Source of the DNA: a virus
Reading direction: 5' to 3' (one strand)
Virus record (IMG/VR): IMGVR_UViG_3300008050_000104
Location: 1-42,030 of that record
Length of the DNA stretch: 42,030 bases
Shown one piece after another: positions 1,447 to 28,323 of the stretch (the stretch's first letter is position 1; the number at the start of each line of letters is the position of its first letter). Both the position numbers and the translations under genes were made by a program. The notes below the pieces were generated by a model. The model did not search any database. It was not told the origin of the DNA and saw only the letters and a list, made by a program, of their open reading frames with translations.

Positions 1447-1482
1447 GGCAGGGGGGTTCAAACCCCCTGCCCTTCTCCGTAT
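1447..1482 (+). promoter_or_regulatory. Recurring hairpin / bipartite promoter-like element, copy A
   Basis: A perfect 9-bp stem, GGCAGGGGG with CCCCCTGCC, encloses loop GTTCAAA. CTTCTCCGTAT follows directly. TTCAA (1457-1461) is separated by exactly 16 bases from CGTAT (1478-1482), as in copies B, C and D. It may be a -35/-10 pair, a terminator for the gene before, or both. The downstream leader CCTCATTGAGAGGCCC also recurs at copy D. Confidence 0.6.
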
Positions 1483-2752: not shown

Positions 2753-2792
2753 GAAAGGCAGGGGGGTTCAAACCCCCCTCCTTTCTCCGTAT
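2753..2792 (+). promoter_or_regulatory. Recurring hairpin / bipartite promoter-like element, copy B
   Basis: The inner stem is GGGGGG with CCCCCC and loop TTCAAA; the outer stem is GAAAGG with CCTTTC. It is followed by TCTCCGTAT. TTCAA (2767-2771) and CGTAT (2788-2792) are again 16 bases apart. It starts directly at the stop codon of the AAA+ gene and lies about 70 bases before the next start. Confidence 0.6.
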
Positions 2793-4336: not shown

Positions 4337-4367
4337 GGGGTTTCAACTACCCCTTGTTTCTCCGTAT
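4337..4367 (+). promoter_or_regulatory. Recurring hairpin / bipartite promoter-like element, copy C
   Basis: Stem GGGGT with ACCCC and a 7-base loop TTCAACT, followed by TTTCTCCGTAT. TTCAA (4342-4346) to CGTAT (4363-4367) is 16 bases. The following GTAAGTGA matches CTAAGTGA at copy A. The ATG of the kinase gene lies only 18 bases beyond, so a transcript from here would have a very short leader. Confidence 0.6.
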
Positions 4368-6780: not shown

Positions 6781-6821
6781 TTGTTTCTCCGAGCGTTTCA
6801 CATAAGAGCTATCACCTCACC

Positions 6822-6878
6822 GGGCCGATAGTCGTTTTACCGTCCTTCTGGCGGTAAAGCGGCTATCGGCCCTTTATC
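6822..6878 (+). terminator. Rho-independent terminator between divergent genes
   Basis: Stem GGGCCGATAG/CTATCGGCCC plus inner stem TTTACCG/CGGTAAA with loop tccttctgg, followed by TTTAT. The U-rich side faces forward, so it stops forward transcripts that would run antisense through the reverse gene. Confidence 0.8.
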
Positions 6879-6895
6879 GTTGACGGAGGCTCTCC

Positions 6896-8053: not shown

Positions 8054-11000
8054 ATGGCTGATATTCCTTTGATTTATGGGCCGGACGGGGGTCTCCGCCA
8101 AACGGTAGAATACTCGGTGTCCGAGTACACCCTCCAAACGGCGGCGGTGACTCGCTTCTTTGAGGGCACCCTCCCCCTCTCCGCTGTTGAGGTGCAAGTC
8201 TCGATTAACGGGAGTGGTTTCAGCAGCGATGAGACCTTGGTGTTGTGGGGTGATGGGAAGTGGACTGTCCCAAACCCCGCGTATGATCCGGACGGGTTGA
8301 AACTACTCAATGGCCGTAACACCGTAGAGGTGCGTGCTGTGCTCCCCTCCGGGACCACCACGGGTTCCGCCTCGGCGGTGGTTCGCTTGGCTGCTGAAGC
8401 CGCAACTATCGAGGTGCAAGCCCCTACCAACCTTTCTGTTGTGCAGGAGAGCTTGGCCGTGGTCGTGCGTGCGGAAGGTCCGGCTATCACCACCTATCTG
8501 CAAGGGTTTAACTTCTACGCTTCGACGGAAGCTGGGGGTGGGGCTTCGGGATACACCCGAATCAATGTGAATCGGGTTTCCGAAGGGGTGGTTTCAGAGG
8601 AAACCGAGGAGTTCGCTTCCCAGACCATCGAAGTGAAGGTGAAGGTGGATGAGAATGGTGACCCTGTCGCCGACCCTCTCTACATGCGACTTACGGCAGA
8701 GCAAGAATACTACAAGGTGGACCCCGAAACGGGTCCGGAGTGGGTTGTCGCTCAAAGCGACTACGATCAGCGGTACGAGATCCCAGAGACTGCCCGCACT
8801 GTGCGTCTGGCTAATGCCCTTTCGGAAGTCCGGGAGGCCATTCTTTATGAGTTCTCCCACAATCGGACGGCAGGGCCGTCTGCGCTCCCTTCTACCGTCC
8901 GGGTGACCCCTTTCGCTAACTTGGCCTCCGACCGCCCTCTTTACTATGTAGTGACCGCCCTCTACTACGACCCTACGGCCAACGTAGAGTACGAGTCGGC
9001 TTTTTCTGTTGAAGTGGTAGGCCACCCGATGGTGGTGACGACGGCCATTGGCTCTATTCCCGCCGTCAAGCGCCAAGACATCATCACCCAGTTCATCCAA
9101 GGGATCTTTCGGAGCAATCCTCAAATCAGAGTCGAGGCGGGGAGTGTATTGCGCGACACCGTCATCGACCCTTTCTCCTCGGAAAGTGAACGGGTCCGGT
9201 TCTTGTTGGACTTCTACCAGCGAGCACGCACTCCTACGCTGTTGCTTCAAGTGGATGACCCTACGGGGTCAGGTACGTCGGTGAGCGTGAGGGGCAGCAC
9301 TTACAAGCAAGCTCTCAAGCAAGCCCTCTATCTGGGGGCTGATTCCGAAGTCCAAGCATTGATCGACTCGGCTTTTGAAGCGTATGCCAGCAACTTTGGA
9401 GTGCTGCGGCGAGGCGGTATTGCGGCACAAGGTGAAATCCTTTTCTATACCACTTCGCGCCCCACTTCTTCTCTGCTCATCCCGCTGGGGACTACGGTGG
9501 CGGGAGGCCAAGTGGCTTTTTCTACCACCCGTGAGCAGCTTCTGCCCCTTTCCCGCACCGCCAGTTTCTACAACCCCTCGACGGGAGCCTACCAAGTCTC
9601 GGTTCCGGTGCAGGCCACTGTCACCGGGGCCACAACCAACCTCGGGGCCGGGCAGGTGAAGAAGATCTCCAGCAGCCTCCCGGGTAACTTCTCCGCCACA
9701 AACATCAACGCGATGGTGGGGGGACAGGACCGGGAATCTAATCTGATGTTGACTGCCCGAGTTCACAACCGCTTGGCTTCAGTGGATTCAGGCACAGCCC
9801 GAGGATACCTCCAGACGGCTGCGGATGTGGCGGGTGTTGTCAAAGCTAACGTCGTGGACGCAGGCAACCCTCTCATGCAACGCGATCTGAACGCAGACGG
9901 TGAGCACAAGGGCGGAAAGGTGGATGTGTGGGTGCAGGGGGCTAACGAGGCTACCGTCACGGACACCTTCGCCTTCACTTTTGAGATTGGACAAGACATT
10001 CAGTTTGAGGTGATCGGGGCTGTGGGGGATTTGCTCTTCCGAGCTATCGACCCCTCCCTCACTGCCATTGACCCCATTGTGGAGATGTTGGATGACCCAG
10101 CGGTGGGGTATGAGTTCCGAAACGCCTCAACGGGTGAAGTGTTTAATCTGACCGGGGTGACCTACCCCTCCTACAACACTATCCAGTTGGACACGAGTCT
10201 CATTCAGCCTGCGGTGGACCTCACCGATGTGCTTCTGGGATCTTATCGGCGACGAACCGGAACAGCTTTCGTGCTCCCTCGTCAGCCAGTATCGGCTATC
10301 ACTTCGGTGGTGGGAAATGTGTCGGGAACGCTGCCTGCCGAGGCTTATCTCCTCATCCACCCTAATGCTCCTCTGGAGATGGGGCGGTCTACGCTGGCGG
10401 GGGATTATCTTCAGGTCAATGGCTATAGGGATAGTTCTGGGCAGTGGGTTCCTACCGGGGAGACCCTCGCAGTGACGGACGAGAGCCATGTTATGCTGGG
10501 CCAGTACCCCGAGTTCCTTAACTTCTTGGGGGGTAACTACCTCTCGGTGGTGGTGAAGTCGGCGGATGGTCTCATCACCTACGCTGGCCCTAATGATCCA
10601 AGCGGTATTCCGGACTACACCATCTCTTTGGGCACCCAAACCACGCCGGTTTCCCTCACACGGACTGCCACGAGCGCCATCTCCAGTGGGGCTACCGTGC
10701 TCATTTCCTACGAGCATGACGAGAACTTCTCGGTCACCTACATCACTAATCTCATCACCTCCCTTACGCAAAATGCGTTGGATGCGGACAAACATGCGAC
10801 TGCTGATGTGGTCGCCAAAGAGGCACTTCCTGCGCCTCTTGATGTTGAAGCGACAGTAGTGGTCCGTCAAGGACGCGAGACATCGACCGTGGACACGGCA
10901 CTCCGGACCAACCTCACCAACTTCTTTGGGGGTCTCCGGCTTGGAGATCCTGTCCGACAGTCAGACATCATTGATGTGATTGAACAGACTTCTGGCGTGA

Positions 11001-11563
11001 GCTATGTGGTGGTCCCTCTCACCAAGATGGTCCGTCAGGCCGGATCTACCGTGGTGCGTGAGTCTCTCTCTACCGACACGGTGAGCGAGAGCGCATTTAT
11101 CGCCTCCCTCACAACTAACGATGCCGTAGTCTACATTCTCACGCAGGAGTTGTCGGCCGCCACCGTAGACGGCGGCGGCCAAAAGGGGGATTTCAAAGCT
11201 GTCTTCCAAGACGATATGGAGATGTCCCTTCTTCCCACAGCCAGCACCCTTTCGGGCTTGGGCATCCTTCCCGAGCGAGCCTACATCCTTGGGAATGCGG
11301 GTCGTTCCATCGAGGGCTACTCCGATGACGCCACTCTTAATGCACAGGGGTACATCACTGCTGCTTCCATCACGCAGCGTCGGAGGGAACTGACAGCCAA
11401 CCGAGTGCTGGTTTCCCTTTCCCCCGGTGCTGCTCCCACGGAGCACTCTTACGCTCTCACCTATGTGGTGGGGGAGGGCTCCGGGGCGCGGAATGTGGAC
11501 CCCGGAGGGGCCGAGTATGGTTCCGAAGGCTCGTTCGTCTTCACTTACGACGAGGACCGATAG
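8054..11563 (+). CDS. Baseplate J/gp6-like protein, large form
   Basis: An 1169-residue protein from ATG 8054, nine bases after the previous stop. The N-terminal third (residues about 20-330) is built of Ig/FN3-like strands (EVQVSINGSGF, NTVEVRAVLPSG). From about residue 340 it becomes J-like: VEAGSVLRDTVIDPFSSE and LLDFYQRAR, then FSTTREQLLPLS and GQDRESNLMLTARV, then TARGYLQTAADVAGVV. The GQDxES segment and the paired strand repeats are hallmarks of baseplate J proteins. It would join wedge and tail hub. The extra N-terminal domains make it longer than the common 300-500-residue forms. It ends 11 bases from a convergent gene. Confidence 0.88.
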   Translation: MADIPLIYGPDGGLRQTVEYSVSEYTLQTAAVTRFFEGTLPLSAVEVQVSINGSGFSSDETLVLWGDGKWTVPNPAYDPDGLKLLNGRNTVEVRAVLPSGTTTGSASAVVRLAAEAATIEVQAPTNLSVVQESLAVVVRAEGPAITTYLQGFNFYASTEAGGGASGYTRINVNRVSEGVVSEETEEFASQTIEVKVKVDENGDPVADPLYMRLTAEQEYYKVDPETGPEWVVAQSDYDQRYEIPETARTVRLANALSEVREAILYEFSHNRTAGPSALPSTVRVTPFANLASDRPLYYVVTALYYDPTANVEYESAFSVEVVGHPMVVTTAIGSIPAVKRQDIITQFIQGIFRSNPQIRVEAGSVLRDTVIDPFSSESERVRFLLDFYQRARTPTLLLQVDDPTGSGTSVSVRGSTYKQALKQALYLGADSEVQALIDSAFEAYASNFGVLRRGGIAAQGEILFYTTSRPTSSLLIPLGTTVAGGQVAFSTTREQLLPLSRTASFYNPSTGAYQVSVPVQATVTGATTNLGAGQVKKISSSLPGNFSATNINAMVGGQDRESNLMLTARVHNRLASVDSGTARGYLQTAADVAGVVKANVVDAGNPLMQRDLNADGEHKGGKVDVWVQGANEATVTDTFAFTFEIGQDIQFEVIGAVGDLLFRAIDPSLTAIDPIVEMLDDPAVGYEFRNASTGEVFNLTGVTYPSYNTIQLDTSLIQPAVDLTDVLLGSYRRRTGTAFVLPRQPVSAITSVVGNVSGTLPAEAYLLIHPNAPLEMGRSTLAGDYLQVNGYRDSSGQWVPTGETLAVTDESHVMLGQYPEFLNFLGGNYLSVVVKSADGLITYAGPNDPSGIPDYTISLGTQTTPVSLTRTATSAISSGATVLISYEHDENFSVTYITNLITSLTQNALDADKHATADVVAKEALPAPLDVEATVVVRQGRETSTVDTALRTNLTNFFGGLRLGDPVRQSDIIDVIEQTSGVSYVVVPLTKMVRQAGSTVVRESLSTDTVSESAFIASLTTNDAVVYILTQELSAATVDGGGQKGDFKAVFQDDMEMSLLPTASTLSGLGILPERAYILGNAGRSIEGYSDDATLNAQGYITAASITQRRRELTANRVLVSLSPGAAPTEHSYALTYVVGEGSGARNVDPGGAEYGSEGSFVFTYDEDR

Positions 11564-11574
11564 GCTACTGTTCG

Positions 11575-12174
11575 TTACCCCTCCCTGAACCACAGTTTGT
11601 CGTTGAGATTGTAAGTGTGACACAACTCCTCGCCCGGCGAGATGTCCCGTTTGGCCGTGATGTCGAAATAGAGGCGTTGGGTCTCCGGGTCCACATGACC
11701 CTCGTACTGTACGTTGCTGGTGGGGAACGGCGCATGGTTGTAGAGCATCCCGTAGCCCAGAACCAGACAGGAGTGTCGGGTGTTTTCGTCTTCGTCCCAC
11801 GGCATCACCATGTGAACGAGGCTTTGGCCGACGTTGCTATCCGCGTAGGGGAGAATCTCCAGCCCGTGCAACAACGTCTTGTAGTTGATCTTTTTGCCCT
11901 TGGCTGTTTTGCTCGCTATCACATAAGCCGGGCACCTCTCTACGAGGTCTCCCTTTTTATAGGCTTGGGTGGCAAACACTCCTAATCCTTTGTTGGGGGT
12001 GTGCCGGAGTGCCAGATGCCCAGTTTGAGTAACCGGTCTCACGGTCGCGGCAGGGCGCAACAGTTGGTTGCACCCTTCGCATTTCATCCCGTAGTCGCCC
12101 ACGGTTCGACGGCCCAGCTTTTCGTTCAGGAGGCCGCAGTGGCTGCACTGGAGATGGTAGACGTTACGGTTCAT
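11575..12174 (-). CDS. SET-domain protein with N-terminal zinc ribbon
   Basis: A 199-residue protein. Cys10, Cys13, Cys32 and Cys35 form a CxxC...CxxC ribbon. The SET fold is seen as KGLGVFAT (62-69), then LGYGMLYNHA (139-148, the N-H motif) and ISPGEELCHTY (178-188, the E-E-L...Y motif). SET proteins transfer methyl groups from S-adenosylmethionine to lysines. The target here is unknown: host or phage proteins are both possible. It is the last gene of a four-gene reverse operon that begins with a sigma-like factor, and it overlaps the GIY-YIG gene by 11 bases. Phage SET proteins are known but uncommon. Confidence 0.85.
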   Translation of the reverse strand: MNRNVYHLQCSHCGLLNEKLGRRTVGDYGMKCEGCNQLLRPAATVRPVTQTGHLALRHTPNKGLGVFATQAYKKGDLVERCPAYVIASKTAKGKKINYKTLLHGLEILPYADSNVGQSLVHMVMPWDEDENTRHSCLVLGYGMLYNHAPFPTSNVQYEGHVDPETQRLYFDITAKRDISPGEELCHTYNLNDKLWFREG

Positions 12175-12526
12175 GGGGACACTCTACCCGGGGGTCTTTG
12201 GTGCCCAGACCTCGGCACCATTTTGAGTCGCTCGGTGACCAGTGGCATCGGGCCTCTCCTCGTTTTCCCTTCTTCAAGGCTCGTTCGGCTTTCAGGGCTT
12301 CCGACCGATTGGCGTAGGGTCCGAAGACAGCTTTGATTCGCCATGGGCGGTGCTTACTCGTGTACTTGCCGCCGCCCTTAATCTCCCCGTTGTGTTGGCG
12401 TAGCCTCCGCTTCGGGTCCGTTGTCATACCGACGTAGTGAAACCCGGCAAGGGGGTTACCTCGTTTGCCCACGCGGACCTGTTGACTCTGGATGACGTAG
12501 ACCCAGTAGGGGTTGGGGTCACTCAT
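12164..12526 (-). CDS. GIY-YIG nuclease, SLX1/UvrC-type
   Basis: A 120-residue protein. WVYVIQS (8-14) is the GIY strand, FHYVGMT (29-35) the YIG strand, and the DPKRRLRQHNGEIKGGG segment (37-53) carries the conserved Arg and His. The later RSEALKAERALKK helix holds the metal-binding Glu region. The short single-domain form with a GGGKYTSKHRPW loop is like the SLX1/YhbQ branch, which cuts branched DNA. It may serve recombination, repair or homing. It lies in the sigma-factor operon and overlaps both neighbours. Confidence 0.85.
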   Translation of the reverse strand: MSDPNPYWVYVIQSQQVRVGKRGNPLAGFHYVGMTTDPKRRLRQHNGEIKGGGKYTSKHRPWRIKAVFGPYANRSEALKAERALKKGKRGEARCHWSPSDSKWCRGLGTKDPRVECPHEP

Positions 12527-12974
12527 CTTCCACCTTGCCCGAAAGAATGTACCCGCCCAGTTGGTCCGTCAGAGCGGCTTCCGCCAAGGTCCACTGGGAC
12601 ATGGTGGCTTTCATTTCTTGTCCCCCTTCGGTCTGTATGAGGAGGTCGTACCCTTGTCGGCGAAACACTCCACGGATTTCGTGAGGGTAGGGTTTCCCCT
12701 CCGGAGTGATGAGAGGGATGCGGCTTCGGTCCTCGGGATAGGAGAACTTCGCCCAGTGGGGTTCTCCACCACCGGTCGCCGGAACGGCACTCTGTGTGTC
12801 GAGAGCGGAACGCAGGGCGGTGGCCGCACGGGTTCGTCCTTGAATCGTGCGGATTTGACTCCCCACGGGTCCGGCATCCACCTCACAACTCACAGAACAG
12901 AAGTAGATAGGAGCGCCATCATAGTAGGTGTAGTCTCGCCCACAGACGAGACATTGAAGGGTGTGGGCAGCCAT
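12519..12974 (-). CDS. Hypothetical protein with zinc-binding N-terminus
   Basis: 151 residues from ATG at 12974, preceded only by a distant AGGAGG (19 bases), so the start is less certain. The N-terminus HTLQCLVCGRDYTYYDG with the following FCSVSCEVD gives a treble-clef-like CxxC...CxxxC zinc site. The rest is unassigned (GVFRRQGYDLLIQTEGG and a Leu-rich end). It overlaps the GIY-YIG gene by eight bases and follows the sigma-like gene by 23 bases, so all four are likely co-transcribed. Confidence 0.65.
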   Translation of the reverse strand: MAAHTLQCLVCGRDYTYYDGAPIYFCSVSCEVDAGPVGSQIRTIQGRTRAATALRSALDTQSAVPATGGGEPHWAKFSYPEDRSRIPLITPEGKPYPHEIRGVFRRQGYDLLIQTEGGQEMKATMSQWTLAEAALTDQLGGYILSGKVEDE

Positions 12975-12997
12975 GGGGCCACAATACCCGCTGCCTC

Positions 12998-13906
12998 CTA
13001 CTGGAGAAGGGACCGCCACTCCGCTCCAACAGTCCGAATGATGCGAAGGATTTTGGCTACCTGATGGGGAGTTTGTCCCGTGTGGGTTGCAATCTCGGAC
13101 TTGCGGAAACCGGCTGACAAAAGCTGAACACACTCCTCCACCACGTTGGGGTTGAGGTTAGTGGTGGCCGTGTGGGAGAGGGTCATTTCGGTTAGTCTGT
13201 CCACCAAAGATTGGCCTCGCAGGAGGTCTGCTTGAAGGGGGCCAACCGAAGCCAAGTCCGCCGTGGCTACGTCTTCCAGTTCATTGTCATGGTTCACTAC
13301 TCCGATGACCTCGTTGCGGCTCAACCGCGAGTAGCGGCGGTGGTAGTTGGAGACAATGCAGCCACACACCATGTGAACGTAGTGGCCGAAGGAAGATTTG
13401 TTTGGGTCGAAGGGGCATTTCCCCCCGTTACGGACCAGAAGACCTTTATAGATCTCCTGCAATACATCTTCGGGGTCATATCCATAGCGGGCTACTCTCC
13501 GGCCGAACCCGGCAAAGAAGAGTTTGCGTACCTCATGGCCTCGCCGTGCGAGATCCACCCCAATGGGAGCCGCCGCGACCGAGAGTGCGGTGCTGGTGTG
13601 GATGACCGCTGCCCTTTTGGCGACGGTGAGGGCAGGGCTTCCTTGGAACAAGGAGAGGGTGTCGAAGGCTGGTTCTGAAGGGCGGAAAGAGCCTTGTCGG
13701 AAGTAACGGTCGAAAGTGAGTTTGGGGTCTCGTGCCCGCCGAGCCGGTGCTGGGGTGCGGTTTACAAGAGCGATGATGGTTTGCCGGGCTGATGGGTAAC
13801 GGACAGACCCTCCGGGCCACGAAACCAGAAAACCAGTGTTATCGGCGACAACACGATGGCCTCCGTGTTCGGTTCGGGCGTAGTAGGTTCCTTCCGTTCT
13901 CAACAT
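12998..13906 (-). CDS. Sigma-70-like RNA polymerase factor
   Basis: A 302-residue protein from ATG at 13906 with GGAG upstream. Residues 1-60 form an unassigned N-terminal domain. Sigma region 2 is seen at about 120-195: YGYDPEDVLQEIYKGLL with the diagnostic EDVLQE (146-151), then SSFGHYVHMVCGCIVSNYHRR. Region 4 is a helix-turn-helix at about 255-293 (GFRKSEIATHTGQTP). The layout is that of a small two-region sigma factor with an added N-terminus. It probably redirects host RNA polymerase to phage promoters. The recurring motifs in this window are candidate targets. It heads the reverse operon. Confidence 0.8.
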   Translation of the reverse strand: MLRTEGTYYARTEHGGHRVVADNTGFLVSWPGGSVRYPSARQTIIALVNRTPAPARRARDPKLTFDRYFRQGSFRPSEPAFDTLSLFQGSPALTVAKRAAVIHTSTALSVAAAPIGVDLARRGHEVRKLFFAGFGRRVARYGYDPEDVLQEIYKGLLVRNGGKCPFDPNKSSFGHYVHMVCGCIVSNYHRRYSRLSRNEVIGVVNHDNELEDVATADLASVGPLQADLLRGQSLVDRLTEMTLSHTATTNLNPNVVEECVQLLSAGFRKSEIATHTGQTPHQVAKILRIIRTVGAEWRSLLQ

Positions 13907-13949
13907 AGTGCGGCTCCAGCAAAGTAGGGGGGGTTAAGCGACGTACAGG

Positions 13950-13965
13950 ACTATACCAATGTCAA
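13950..13965 (-). promoter_or_regulatory. Host-type promoter candidate for the sigma-like operon
   Basis: On the reverse strand, TTGACA is followed after four bases by TATAGT preceded by TGG (extended -10 look). The two boxes are too close to pair with each other. TATAGT as an extended -10 is the more likely signal, giving a leader of about 40 bases before the sigma-like gene. Confidence 0.4.
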
Positions 13966-14097
13966 GAGAAGTCCTACCCCCCATTAGCAAGGTTTTAGAG
14001 GGGGGTCGAACCCTTGGGGTCGGTATTTCCCCTATGGGTTTTCTGGGGGTACCCCTAACAGGGGGACGCCAAGGCTGTCCGCCGCCGGAGTTTTATC
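13966..14097. other. Intergenic region rich in G and C runs between divergent genes
   Basis: It holds several G4-G7 and C4-C6 runs (tagaggggggtcgaaccc, gggggtacccctaacagggg) able to form alternative hairpins, and a ribosome site GGAG before ATG 14098. No copy of the TTCAA-16-CGTAT element is present, and no gene is seen. Confidence 0.6.
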
Positions 14098-14490
14098 ATG
14101 TCCGATCCTTACGCTCTGGGTCTCGTTAAAGAATGGGCTGATGCCCTCACTCATGGTCGTTTGGAGGAGCTTCTCGATATGTATATCGACAAAGCTGTGT
14201 TGGTTCCCACATTTGGGACAGAGATTCTCCGAGGCCGTGAAGCCCTTTCAGGGTACTTTTCCGGGCTGATGGAGTACCCCAATCTGCATGTGGCGGTACA
14301 TGAGGAGATCAACCAGAACACCCATGAGGGTCATCGGGTGGTGTCTGGTCACTACACTTTTAGTTGGGGTTCCCCGACCGAGGAGAAGACCTCGGTCGAT
14401 GCACGCTACACCTTCGCCATCGAGCAGGGAGAAGGCGCGGAGGAGTGGGTTATCAATACGCACCACTCGTCTGAACAGCCCAAGGGATAA
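14098..14490 (+). CDS. SnoaL/NTF2-like domain protein
   Basis: A 130-residue protein, close to the full length of a single NTF2-like domain. The pattern is typical: an N-terminal helix VKEWADALTHGRLEELLDMY, then the DKAVLVPTFG strand, REALSGYFSGLM, and four long strands ending YTFAIEQGEG and WVINTHHSS. Such domains bind small ligands or form dimers, and some associate with kinases. No catalytic residue can be assigned. It is the first gene of the forward block after the sigma-like operon and is followed by element D. Confidence 0.7.
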   Translation: MSDPYALGLVKEWADALTHGRLEELLDMYIDKAVLVPTFGTEILRGREALSGYFSGLMEYPNLHVAVHEEINQNTHEGHRVVSGHYTFSWGSPTEEKTSVDARYTFAIEQGEGAEEWVINTHHSSEQPKG

Positions 14491-14500
14491 TCCTTTTTTG

Positions 14501-14538
14501 GGAGAAAGGGGGTTCAACTCCCCCTTGCTTCTCCGTAT
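14501..14538 (+). promoter_or_regulatory. Recurring hairpin / bipartite promoter-like element, copy D
   Basis: Inner stem GGGGG/CCCCC with loop TTCAACT, outer stem GGAGAA/TTCTCC, then GTAT. TTCAA (14513-14517) to CGTAT (14534-14538) is 16 bases. A TTTTTT run lies just upstream. The leader CCTCATCGAGAGGCCC matches the one at copy A. Confidence 0.6.
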
Positions 14539-14586: not shown

Positions 14587-14793
14587 ATGGCACGCAAGAT
14601 TAAACGCACTCGTGGAAAGACCGCAAAGGTCGCCACCCAGATGGCTCACATCAAGGCCCAGCGCGGGCTGGACCGTGAAGCCCACTTCGCTGAAGGCAAG
14701 GATCTTGCCTCTTGGCGTGGGTGCCACACCGTCACCAAGGACCGCAAGCGAGAAGCCTCTCGTCGTGCTTGTCGCACCAAGGTCCAGTTTTAA
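14587..14793 (+). CDS. Small basic hypothetical protein
   Basis: 68 residues from ATG 14587 after GGAG. It is strongly basic throughout (ARKIKRTRGKTAKVATQMAH, KDRKREASRRACRTKV) with a Trp and two Cys. Such proteins usually bind nucleic acid. It is driven by element D and shares that element's leader with the AAA+ gene. No family is recognised. Confidence 0.65.
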   Translation: MARKIKRTRGKTAKVATQMAHIKAQRGLDREAHFAEGKDLASWRGCHTVTKDRKREASRRACRTKVQF

Positions 14794-14838
14794 CCACTCT
14801 CACTTCCCGTCTTGCACCGAGCAAGCAAAGGAGGCTCT

Positions 14839-15345
14839 ATGTCTGATTTCACGTTTCTTAGCGGTGCCCTCGTTCTTGCCGTAGAAGGCATGAAGGAGGG
14901 TTCGGAGAGAGTCCGTATCGTCACGGACAAGGGCACCATCTCCTTTTTCCACTACCAAGATTGCTGCGAGAGCGTTTCGGTGGAGGATGTGACCGGGGAT
15001 GTGGAAGACTTCACTGGTTCTCGGATCGCCGAGTTCCGCGAAGACACCAACCACGAGGCGAGCGGTTACGGCGAAACCCTGTGGACGTTCTACAACATCA
15101 TCACCGATGTGGGCGACTTCCAGATTCGTTGGTGCGGCACCAGCAACGGCTACTACAGCGTGAGTGTCAGCCACAACTGGGAACCCGGTAAGGCGGTGCC
15201 CGTTTCTCTTTGCCTCCACCCCCCGTTCGCTGCTATTCGCCGGATCGAGGAGGATGGGACCGCGTGGGATGGCAACGGCGACTTCTTGGTGAAGCTCACC
15301 AAGGAAGCGGCCCAAGACCTCTTGGAAAACTACACCCTCAACTAA
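14839..15345 (+). CDS. DUF7448-like hypothetical protein
   Basis: A 168-residue protein from ATG 14839 with AAAGGAGG upstream. The segments HYQDCCESVSVEDVTGDVED, then LWTFYNIIT, then IRWCGTSNGYYS are the recognisable signature of a small family common in phages and bacteria (DUF7448 by memory). The function is unknown; the paired Cys and Asp/Glu could bind a metal. It is followed after 11 bases by the next gene. Confidence 0.65.
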   Translation: MSDFTFLSGALVLAVEGMKEGSERVRIVTDKGTISFFHYQDCCESVSVEDVTGDVEDFTGSRIAEFREDTNHEASGYGETLWTFYNIITDVGDFQIRWCGTSNGYYSVSVSHNWEPGKAVPVSLCLHPPFAAIRRIEEDGTAWDGNGDFLVKLTKEAAQDLLENYTLN

Positions 15346-16563: not shown

Positions 16564-16590
16564 GGCGGTAGCCTCGCTATACCCCCTACG
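16564..16590 (+). promoter_or_regulatory. Second recurring promoter-like motif, copy E
   Basis: GGCGGTAGCCTCG runs into CTATACCCCCTACG. It matches copy F almost base for base and copy G partly. CTATAC could act as a -10. It lies about 30 bases before the ribosome site of the first membrane gene. Confidence 0.45.
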
Positions 16591-27763: not shown

Positions 27764-28288
27764 ATGACCCGTAAGCTCCGCCCTGTGGATATTCCTGTAT
27801 CTCCCGCTTTGAGAGAAGCTCTTTTCGGTTTGGCCGTTCCTACAGAGGAGGGGACACATACCACGGTAGGTCTTCTGGTCGAAGAAGCGAAAGAGGCTCT
27901 TCGGAGAGCCAACAAGGTTCTGGCAGAGAGCGAACTGGTGGCTGTCACGGCACGGACGCTGATGAAAGAACAGAAGCGACGAGGAAACCCCTCGTTGCGC
28001 GTTAACCCCGAGGGAGTCGTTGTGCTGCGGGTGCAGTACGACCGGGAGGGAAAACCCGCGCCAGTTGTAGGAGCCTTGGGTGGGGCCGGTCTCCCCTCTC
28101 TTGACGCCTTGCGCCAACAAGCAGCAGAGGTGGGGGTGGACATTAGTGACTTGGGGAGGCAGAAGCGTCAGATCATGGCTCGGCTGACATCTGTTCAACA
28201 GAAAGTGGGCGAGGAACCGCCGCCGAGGTTGCGCGACGAAGTTCAAACAAAACCCCTCGGGAAAGTAAAACTCCCCCCCACACGGTAG
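27764..28288 (+). CDS. Hypothetical protein
   Basis: 174 residues from ATG 27764. An N-terminal domain (LRPVDIPVSPALREALFGLA) is followed by an Ala/Glu helix (VEEAKEALRRANKVLAESEL). Then comes a strand pair (VNPEGVVVLRVQYDREGKP) and a Gln/Arg helix to a basic end. No motif is recognised. It opens the forward block to 30.1 kb. Confidence 0.65.
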   Translation: MTRKLRPVDIPVSPALREALFGLAVPTEEGTHTTVGLLVEEAKEALRRANKVLAESELVAVTARTLMKEQKRRGNPSLRVNPEGVVVLRVQYDREGKPAPVVGALGGAGLPSLDALRQQAAEVGVDISDLGRQKRQIMARLTSVQQKVGEEPPPRLRDEVQTKPLGKVKLPPTR

Positions 28289-28323
28289 AAACCCTATGAA
28301 GGGTCACGGGGACAGGAGAGCGC

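Follow-up and report, generated by a model that had tools for sequence, protein, structure and literature searches.

What does a sigma-like factor do in a virus that encodes it in one operon with a putative protein methyltransferase: do the two act together on the host, or does the factor serve the promoters of the phage itself? The question is raised by a minus-strand operon at 11575-13906 of the virus record IMGVR_UViG_3300008050_000104, a stretch of 42,030 bases that was analyzed as a whole (the window). The operon is headed by the gene of a predicted extracytoplasmic function (ECF)-like sigma factor, here called SIG (12998..13906, minus strand, 302 amino acids), which is followed by genes for a zinc-ribbon-like protein, a GIY-YIG domain protein and a SET-domain protein. 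We consider it probable that SIG is an ECF-like phage sigma factor that steers the host RNA polymerase to a recurrent class of phage promoters (class A), lineage-wide in huge phages, and that the three genes behind it travel as passengers.

The original prediction had placed a sigma-type gene at the head of the operon, and this was borne out by the family profile, the predicted fold and fold matches to phage sigma factors. A profile of the SIG family, compared with PDB sequences, gave a sole match at E<=1, to a sigma-H factor (3.6e-5), in register across regions 2 to 4. Sigma70_r2 was weakly matched by 11 of 18 family members (best E 0.0062) and Sigma70_r4_2 by 3 of 18, generic helix-turn-helix families scoring better than Sigma70_r4_2 on single members. 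The AlphaFold2 model of SIG had a mean predicted local distance difference test score (pLDDT) of 78, with low-confidence stretches at residues 80-110 and 214-231, and its top Foldseek rows in the PDB were sigma factors, of the ECF type and others, with E=4.7e-3 at best. In VIA-align, region 2 of E. coli sigmaE was the counterpart of residues 113-198 (Z 8.3, root-mean-square deviation (rmsd) 2.6, 79 residues) and M. tuberculosis SigD region 4 that of residues 229-300 (Z 7.8, rmsd 2.0, 61 residues); Z values of this size can also be reached by unrelated helical proteins. Among predicted viral proteins, the top row was a phage 'sigma-E' protein (7.4e-4), with many phage sigma factors lower. Since the profile, the Sigma70_r2 matches and the viral fold rows agree, SIG is called a sigma factor despite the modest Z values. 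Judged by sequence and model, it is most likely a phage-encoded sigma factor with a region 2 (13301..13570, minus strand, about residues 113-202, the most conserved part of the family), a helix-turn-helix region 4 (13001..13231, minus strand, about residues 226-302), both located by the VIA matches, and an extra N-terminal domain.

Relatives of SIG were found in IMG/VR at 6 loci with the window protein as query and at 21 loci with a six-sequence alignment. A relative (35%) is also present in LR745208.1, a 485-kb uncultured phage, as the sole SIG match in 50,697 phage records, and SIG-bearing contigs reach 536 kb. The locus survey covered 22 other loci (L036-L057), mostly with 8 kb on each side and including some near-duplicates. 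An alignment of 18 members revealed an N-terminal part of ~70 residues, a variable linker and a conserved C-terminal part, with the best conserved core at about Y143 to H178 (window numbering). Alignment A2 was built without L040 (broken frame), L045, L046 and L054 (near-duplicates) and L042, and alignment A4 additionally without L053, L055 and L057. The phages of L040 (8001-8905) and L038 (8001-8930) are near-identical, and the SIG frame of L040 is interrupted after the N-terminal part and before region 2. As a family of huge phages SIG is new here; in the literature searched, as far as its text was available, no paper on the family or on its promoters was found.

The candidate targets emerged from k-mer counts (6- to 8-mers) upstream of the genes of G001, a 205-kb contig that holds locus L036, which brought up CGTTAAAA and CCGTAAGT. 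The latter occurs 16 times in G001; a GTTAA[A/T] box precedes 15 of the 16 copies by 21 bases (from the start of CGTTAA to the start of CCGTAAG), and the 14 that lie outside gene calls sit 52-196 bp before a same-strand gene. Class A is a two-box, ECF-like element whose -35 and -10 boxes start about 20-22 bp apart, as read from the consensus strings. Four TTCAA-N15-CCGTAT sites precede genes in the window, compared with 0.02 expected from shuffles, for a pattern that was written after the sites had been seen. All are on the plus strand: 1457..1482, before an AAA_5/CobS-like gene (1487/1538-2752) whose orthologues in G001, G003 and G004 likewise have class A; 2767..2792, before gene 2830/2863-3768; 4342..4367, before an AAA_33 kinase-like gene (4266/4386-4844); and 14513..14538, before a 68-amino-acid gene (14587-14793). 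Class A sites lie 26-78 bp ahead of phage genes, among them those for an AAA protein of the CobS/MoxR-like type, for a kinase-like protein and for small proteins without assigned function.

A small expectation-maximisation motif finder was then applied to the SIG-bearing records, with the log-likelihood of the motif compared with the highest of three shuffled nulls per record. Seeds came from k-mer counts of the same records and the nulls were seeded by their own commonest 8-mers; some records were read in part (G005, 400 of 536 kb; G008, 200 of 402; G009, 300 of 436; W01, 400 of 485; G017, 200 of 230). Class A was found, mostly between genes, in 11 of 13 SIG-bearing records of 42 to 536 kb, and in 10 it stood clearly above the shuffled nulls (motif/highest null: G001 412/142, G004 559/153, G003 375/130, G007 732/151, W01 1108/186, G009 719/143, G005 833/131, G008 461/158, G010 607/148, G006 276/135). 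When genome hits were counted only if they outscored the best hit of a random genome, and with genes as drawn by an in-house caller, the intergenic fractions were 18/19 in G001, 28/30 in G004, 31/36 in G003, 56/59 in G007, 54/56 in W01, 58/61 in G009, 66/67 in G005, 60/64 in G008, 62/62 in G010, 22/22 in G006 and 7/11 in the window. The boxes differ from phage to phage: GTTAAAA/CCGTAAGTA in G001, GGTTCAACT/CTCCGTATA in G004, GACTTACTT/GCGTAGAT in G005, CTTATTT/GAGTAGTCTA in G009 and GGATCATC/GAGTAGA in G010. Two large phages with SET and without a SIG match served as controls, a small number (n=2) for which the SIG search had no positive control. C013 gave no clear motif (142 vs 132), and C017, which itself has a weak Sigma70_r2 match (20.6 bits), gave the sigma-70 consensus TTGACA/TATAAT (231 vs 129).

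The GGGGGTTCAAC...CCCCC part of class A is able to form a hairpin in the window and in G004, as would be expected if the elements were terminator hairpins or operators instead of promoters. This explanation is very improbable: orthologous genes in G001 carry a hairpin-free form (GTTAAAA), some divergent gene pairs in G001 have one class A copy facing each way (39459 and 39524), and most copies lie at most 150 bp upstream of a same-strand start (25/30 in G004, 55/59 in G007).

Which polymerase and which factor would use these promoters? No match to the RNA polymerase beta subunit (RpoB family) was found in any of 12 related records, with 14 of 14 controls positive; the single-subunit RNA polymerase family PF00940 also gave no match, a null that is uninformative because no control matched either. 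Since the promoter class accompanies SIG and no phage RpoB was found, SIG most likely recruits the host polymerase to phage promoters, the polymerase step being the part that we infer. SIG would bind the core of the host RNA polymerase, and the enzyme so bound would be directed to class A promoters (TTCAA-N15-CCGTAT in the window), with SIG rather than another factor as the presumed reader. The probable targets, reached through the repeated promoter class, would be phage genes and not host genes placed under a SIG and SET unit. In G000, G001, G003, G004, G002, G008 and G011, SIG is the only Sigma70_r2 match.

Several results weigh against this reading. SIG itself stays under the Pfam cut-off for PF04542 Sigma70_r2 (12.4 bits vs 24, E=0.14), and none of its Foldseek rows in the PDB reaches E<0.001. 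The pattern used in the window is after the fact, as noted above, and motif finding in the window alone was barely better than in shuffles (129 vs 93-111). Class A was not seen in two SIG-bearing records: in G002, a 68-kb fragment, a different motif emerged (158/111) and no pattern tried hit more than one class A-like site, and in G011 the motif was diffuse (367/171) and only 4 of its 18 genome hits were intergenic. Stronger, canonical-looking sigma factors accompany SIG at G007:191336 and 155358 and at G006:65769, so that class A in these two records is not assignable to SIG; G005 and G009 hold further weak sigma matches, and Pfam detects no SIG in W01, G009 and G010. Promoter similarity does not significantly follow SIG identity (rho 0.26, p=0.052), and similarity in G+C content predicts promoter similarity equally well (rho 0.34). 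Finally, near relatives share a second phage element, class B (CGGTAG-N5-CTAT).

The absence of a significant relation with SIG identity, the other sigma factors of G006 and G007 and the presence of class B are what would be expected if class A were read by something other than SIG, be it an ECF sigma of the host or a further phage regulator, with SIG serving some other promoter class (class B, for example) or blocking host transcription as a sigma mimic. All class B copies are intergenic in G001 (18/18), G004 (23/23) and G002 (11/11), typically about 40-60 bp before starts, often those of long open reading frames (ORFs) and a helicase. The element occurs at 16566-16580 and 28283-28297 of the window (2 vs 0.02 expected) and is kept at orthologues of G001 and G004 (8/8/4/113 for both/only first/only second/neither, p=2.6e-6). 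Exact class B copies number 0 in G007 and 1 in G009, both of which have SIG and class A. Class A suits the distribution of SIG better, since these two records lack class B or almost lack it, and class A is found in 11 of the 13 SIG-bearing records. The two-box layout of class A is also that expected for a sigma factor with regions 2 and 4, and SIG is the sole sigma-like match in G000, G001, G003 and G004. A different reader of class A is therefore unlikely, though it deserves more weight than any other alternative considered here, and class B may be an operator or a second promoter of late type. A long inverted repeat between divergent genes at 6781-6895 of the window (GGGCCGATAG...CTATCGGCCC) also contains class B-like words, on either strand.

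If SIG reads class A, the genes under class A should form its regulon, and their conservation was computed from orthologues, taken as reciprocal best hits within a set made up of the window, G001, G004 and G003. Class A was shared at orthologues above expectation (both/only first/only second/neither) in the pairs G001-G004 (7/1/6/119, p=1.1e-7), G001-G003 (8/1/6/75, 3.3e-7), G004-G003 (8/4/5/80, 3.6e-6), window-G004 (4/2/2/27, 0.0039), window-G003 (3/0/3/15, 0.015) and window-G001 (2/2/1/27, 0.035). The shared orthologues carry the GTTAAAA/CCGTAAG form in G001 and the GTTCAAC/CCGTAT form in G004 and the window, and include genes for AAA_5/CobS-like, VWA/CobT-like (G004) and AAA_33 kinase-like proteins and a phosphatase. 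The class A regulon is partly kept while the promoter sequence drifts between phages; SIG and its promoters would thus constitute a lineage-wide system of huge phages. As to timing (early, middle or late), which would have to be inferred, PHROGs names too few class A and class B genes to decide. The AAA_5/CobS-like and VWA/CobT-like genes adjoin each other at 418-2752 of the window and at L085:6272-9307, an arrangement that is conserved between the window and G004 and linked to class A.

How SIG itself is expressed was approached through its upstream sequences. When these were tested in their own phages, class A stood above threshold only in G003 (score 20.4). A GGGGGGT...GGTATtGT-like element at 13950..13982 (minus strand), common to L036, L037 and L043 upstream of SIG in a by-eye comparison, does not score as class A in the phage that carries it and is possibly the promoter of SIG. 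A host sigma-70 promoter before SIG was significant at L051 and L042 (0/200 shuffles each) and marginal at L055 (p=0.045) among 19 upstreams. A general status of SIG as an early gene was dropped, because only L051 and L042 were significant.

The operon itself is arranged as originally described, with all four ORFs on the minus strand at 11575-13906. The zinc protein, with CxxC and CxxxC motifs, is encoded at 12519..12974 (151 amino acids from the likely ATG), the GIY-YIG domain protein at 12164..12526 (120 amino acids) and the SET-domain protein, with an N-terminal two-CxxC ribbon, at 11575..12174 (199 amino acids). The claim of overlapping genes holds for the zinc and GIY-YIG genes (8 nucleotides) and for the GIY-YIG and SET genes (11 nucleotides), and probably fails for SIG and the zinc gene, where the long zinc-protein ORF (13133-12519, minus strand) that overlaps SIG is probably an over-call. 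The ATG at 12974, 23 nucleotides past the SIG stop, is the likelier start because in L036 and L037 the homologous sequence starts only where the short form does; a third start, 13019, was picked by a simple in-house gene caller. Gene spacing and overlaps suggest co-transcription from SIG to SET. Within 11300-14300, a consensus scan found no sigma-70 promoter, and terminators were no more frequent than in shuffles. A baseplate wedge gene (8054-11563, plus strand; phrog_6, E=1.2e-28) is convergent with the operon, its stop and that of the SET gene facing each other with 11 bases between them. Positions 1-25000 of the window had no megablast match among the 50,697 phage records. A DUF7448 protein (14812-15345; phrog_2650, E=1.6e-30) adjoins the operon, and a homologue lies near SIG in L043.

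The GIY-YIG and SET assignments were upheld by Pfam, with PF01541 at 43.8 bits (cut-off 22.6, E=3.2e-11) for a protein whose nuclease activity is predicted, and PF00856 at 41 bits (cut-off 22.4, E=2.9e-10, residues 63-189) for a protein with conserved GxG, NH and Tyr; the zinc protein matched no Pfam family above cut-off. The neighbors of SIG at the 22 other loci include SET in none, GIY-YIG in 4 (L036, L037, L039, L043), the zinc gene in 2 (L036, L037) and a baseplate gene in 11. In L038, SIG reaches the end of the baseplate gene directly, L036 has a 322-amino-acid reverse gene behind GIY-YIG, and in L037 the GIY-YIG homologue is on the other strand; because the contents differ in this way, the stretch between SIG and the baseplate operon is taken to be a variable slot. 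The three genes that follow SIG in the window seem to be passengers with a loose link to it.

The joint control of host gene expression by sigma factor and SET protein that had been proposed is thus not sustained, SET being near SIG in 0/22 loci. In its strongest form, SIG and SET would make up one module for seizing host expression, in which SIG redirects the host polymerase and SET methylates it. The two genes do share an operon with overlapping genes in the window, SET matches over the Pfam cut-off occur in 5 of 14 records searched, all of them SIG-bearing, and a zinc-ribbon SET is present in G001, G003, G004 and the window. Its genes in G001, G003 and G004 belong to minus-strand clusters other than that of SIG, about 65, 14 and 76 kb away from it, and SET genes without SIG exist in other large phages, which leaves such a module highly unlikely. 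A SET match is also present in LR745208.1; the SET protein of the window had 0 matches in the 50,697 phage records. In alignment A3, which comprises 11 of 34 SET loci and the window, the GxG, NH and C-terminal Tyr are invariant in 12/12 rows, so that the enzyme is probably active, presumably as a protein methyltransferase with a role of its own that is unlinked to SIG. No paper on SET-domain proteins in phages was found in the literature searched, within the text available. Eight loci of other large phages (L012, L014, L015, L016, L019, L021, L022 and L023) have two SET matches in tandem, ~430 bp apart.

The N-terminal domain of SIG (13679..13906, minus strand, residues 1-76), with four strands and a helix, is possibly RAMA-like. 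Modelled alone it reached a pLDDT of 84.5; Foldseek gave no match (nothing better than E=1.5), and a comparison of its profile with PDB sequences gave nothing credible. VIA gave a weak row for the C-terminal domain of CcrM (6pbd_B, Z 4.1, rmsd 3.1, 58 aligned), which, in the available part of the source, is termed a RAMA domain and contacts the DNA backbone (PMC9963953). A RAMA identity remains no more than a lead: a profile comparison with one RAMA-like phage protein gave a probability of 1.9%, and Pfam RAMA (PF18755) was silent in SIG, matching only elsewhere in G010 and W01. Improbable, as we judge it, is a new sigma architecture in which regions 2 and 4 are joined to a RAMA-like, DNA-contacting domain that draws the host polymerase to phage (perhaps modified) DNA and to lineage-specific promoters. 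If such a class existed, every lineage of huge phages would possess a private, orthogonal pair of sigma factor and promoter that governs tens of genes.

What makes the system valuable is that the sequences of 11 records each yield a sigma factor along with a promoter class that fits it. This provides candidate sigma-promoter pairs, for every phage a predicted regulon, and an example of promoter drift with the controlled genes partly kept. Sigma factors in jumbo phages that lack an RNA polymerase are already known; in the literature as available, the phages with mapped promoters are few, and the uncultivated ones studied here are not among them.

Among known systems, the nearest SET sequences of known structure are PBCV-1 vSET (1n3j, E=4.7e-5) and P. 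falciparum PFL0690c (4rz0, E=2.3e-7), from which the phage protein differs by its N-terminal two-CxxC ribbon. SIG resembles bacterial ECF sigmas (E. coli sigmaE, M. tuberculosis SigD and SigH) in the predicted fold of regions 2 and 4 and in the two-box promoters, whose spacing in bacteria is similar to that of class A, and differs from them in its very low sequence identity, the N-terminal domain of ~75 residues, the long linker and the phage regulon. The closest known system is the sigma factor gp47 of Salmonella phage 7-11. According to the available parts of the report, gp47 has a region 4, was found experimentally to read the bipartite GTAAtg-16-aCTA with the host RNA polymerase, and has eight promoters before late genes (PMC8948821). 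Like gp47, SIG would be a phage-encoded sigma factor with region 4 and bipartite phage promoters, as computed here; unlike gp47, it is found in huge phages, has an extra N-terminal domain and would have tens of promoters per genome, of other sequences. The kinship is one of fold only (sigma factor of the 7-11-like phage GAP52, E=0.044 in the viral search). The gp36 protein of phiEco32 is described, in the text available, as a sigma factor that redirects the host RNA polymerase to phage promoters (PMC8948821, PMC4331800), using a single-element promoter, tAATGTAtA, and without region 4 homology (PMC8948821); SIG, in contrast, has a predicted region 4 and would use two-box promoters. Huge phages with sigma-70 and AsiA-like proteins are mentioned in the accessible part of another study (PMC7162821). 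Jumbo phages without an RNA polymerase ('group 2') often encode sigma factors that are thought to recruit the host polymerase (PMC7824862, PMC13282480), and these are described, in the portions available, as having a minimal single helix-turn-helix form or an RpoD-like form (PMC7824862). Beside these two forms the SIG family would represent a third layout, for which promoters are proposed phage by phage.

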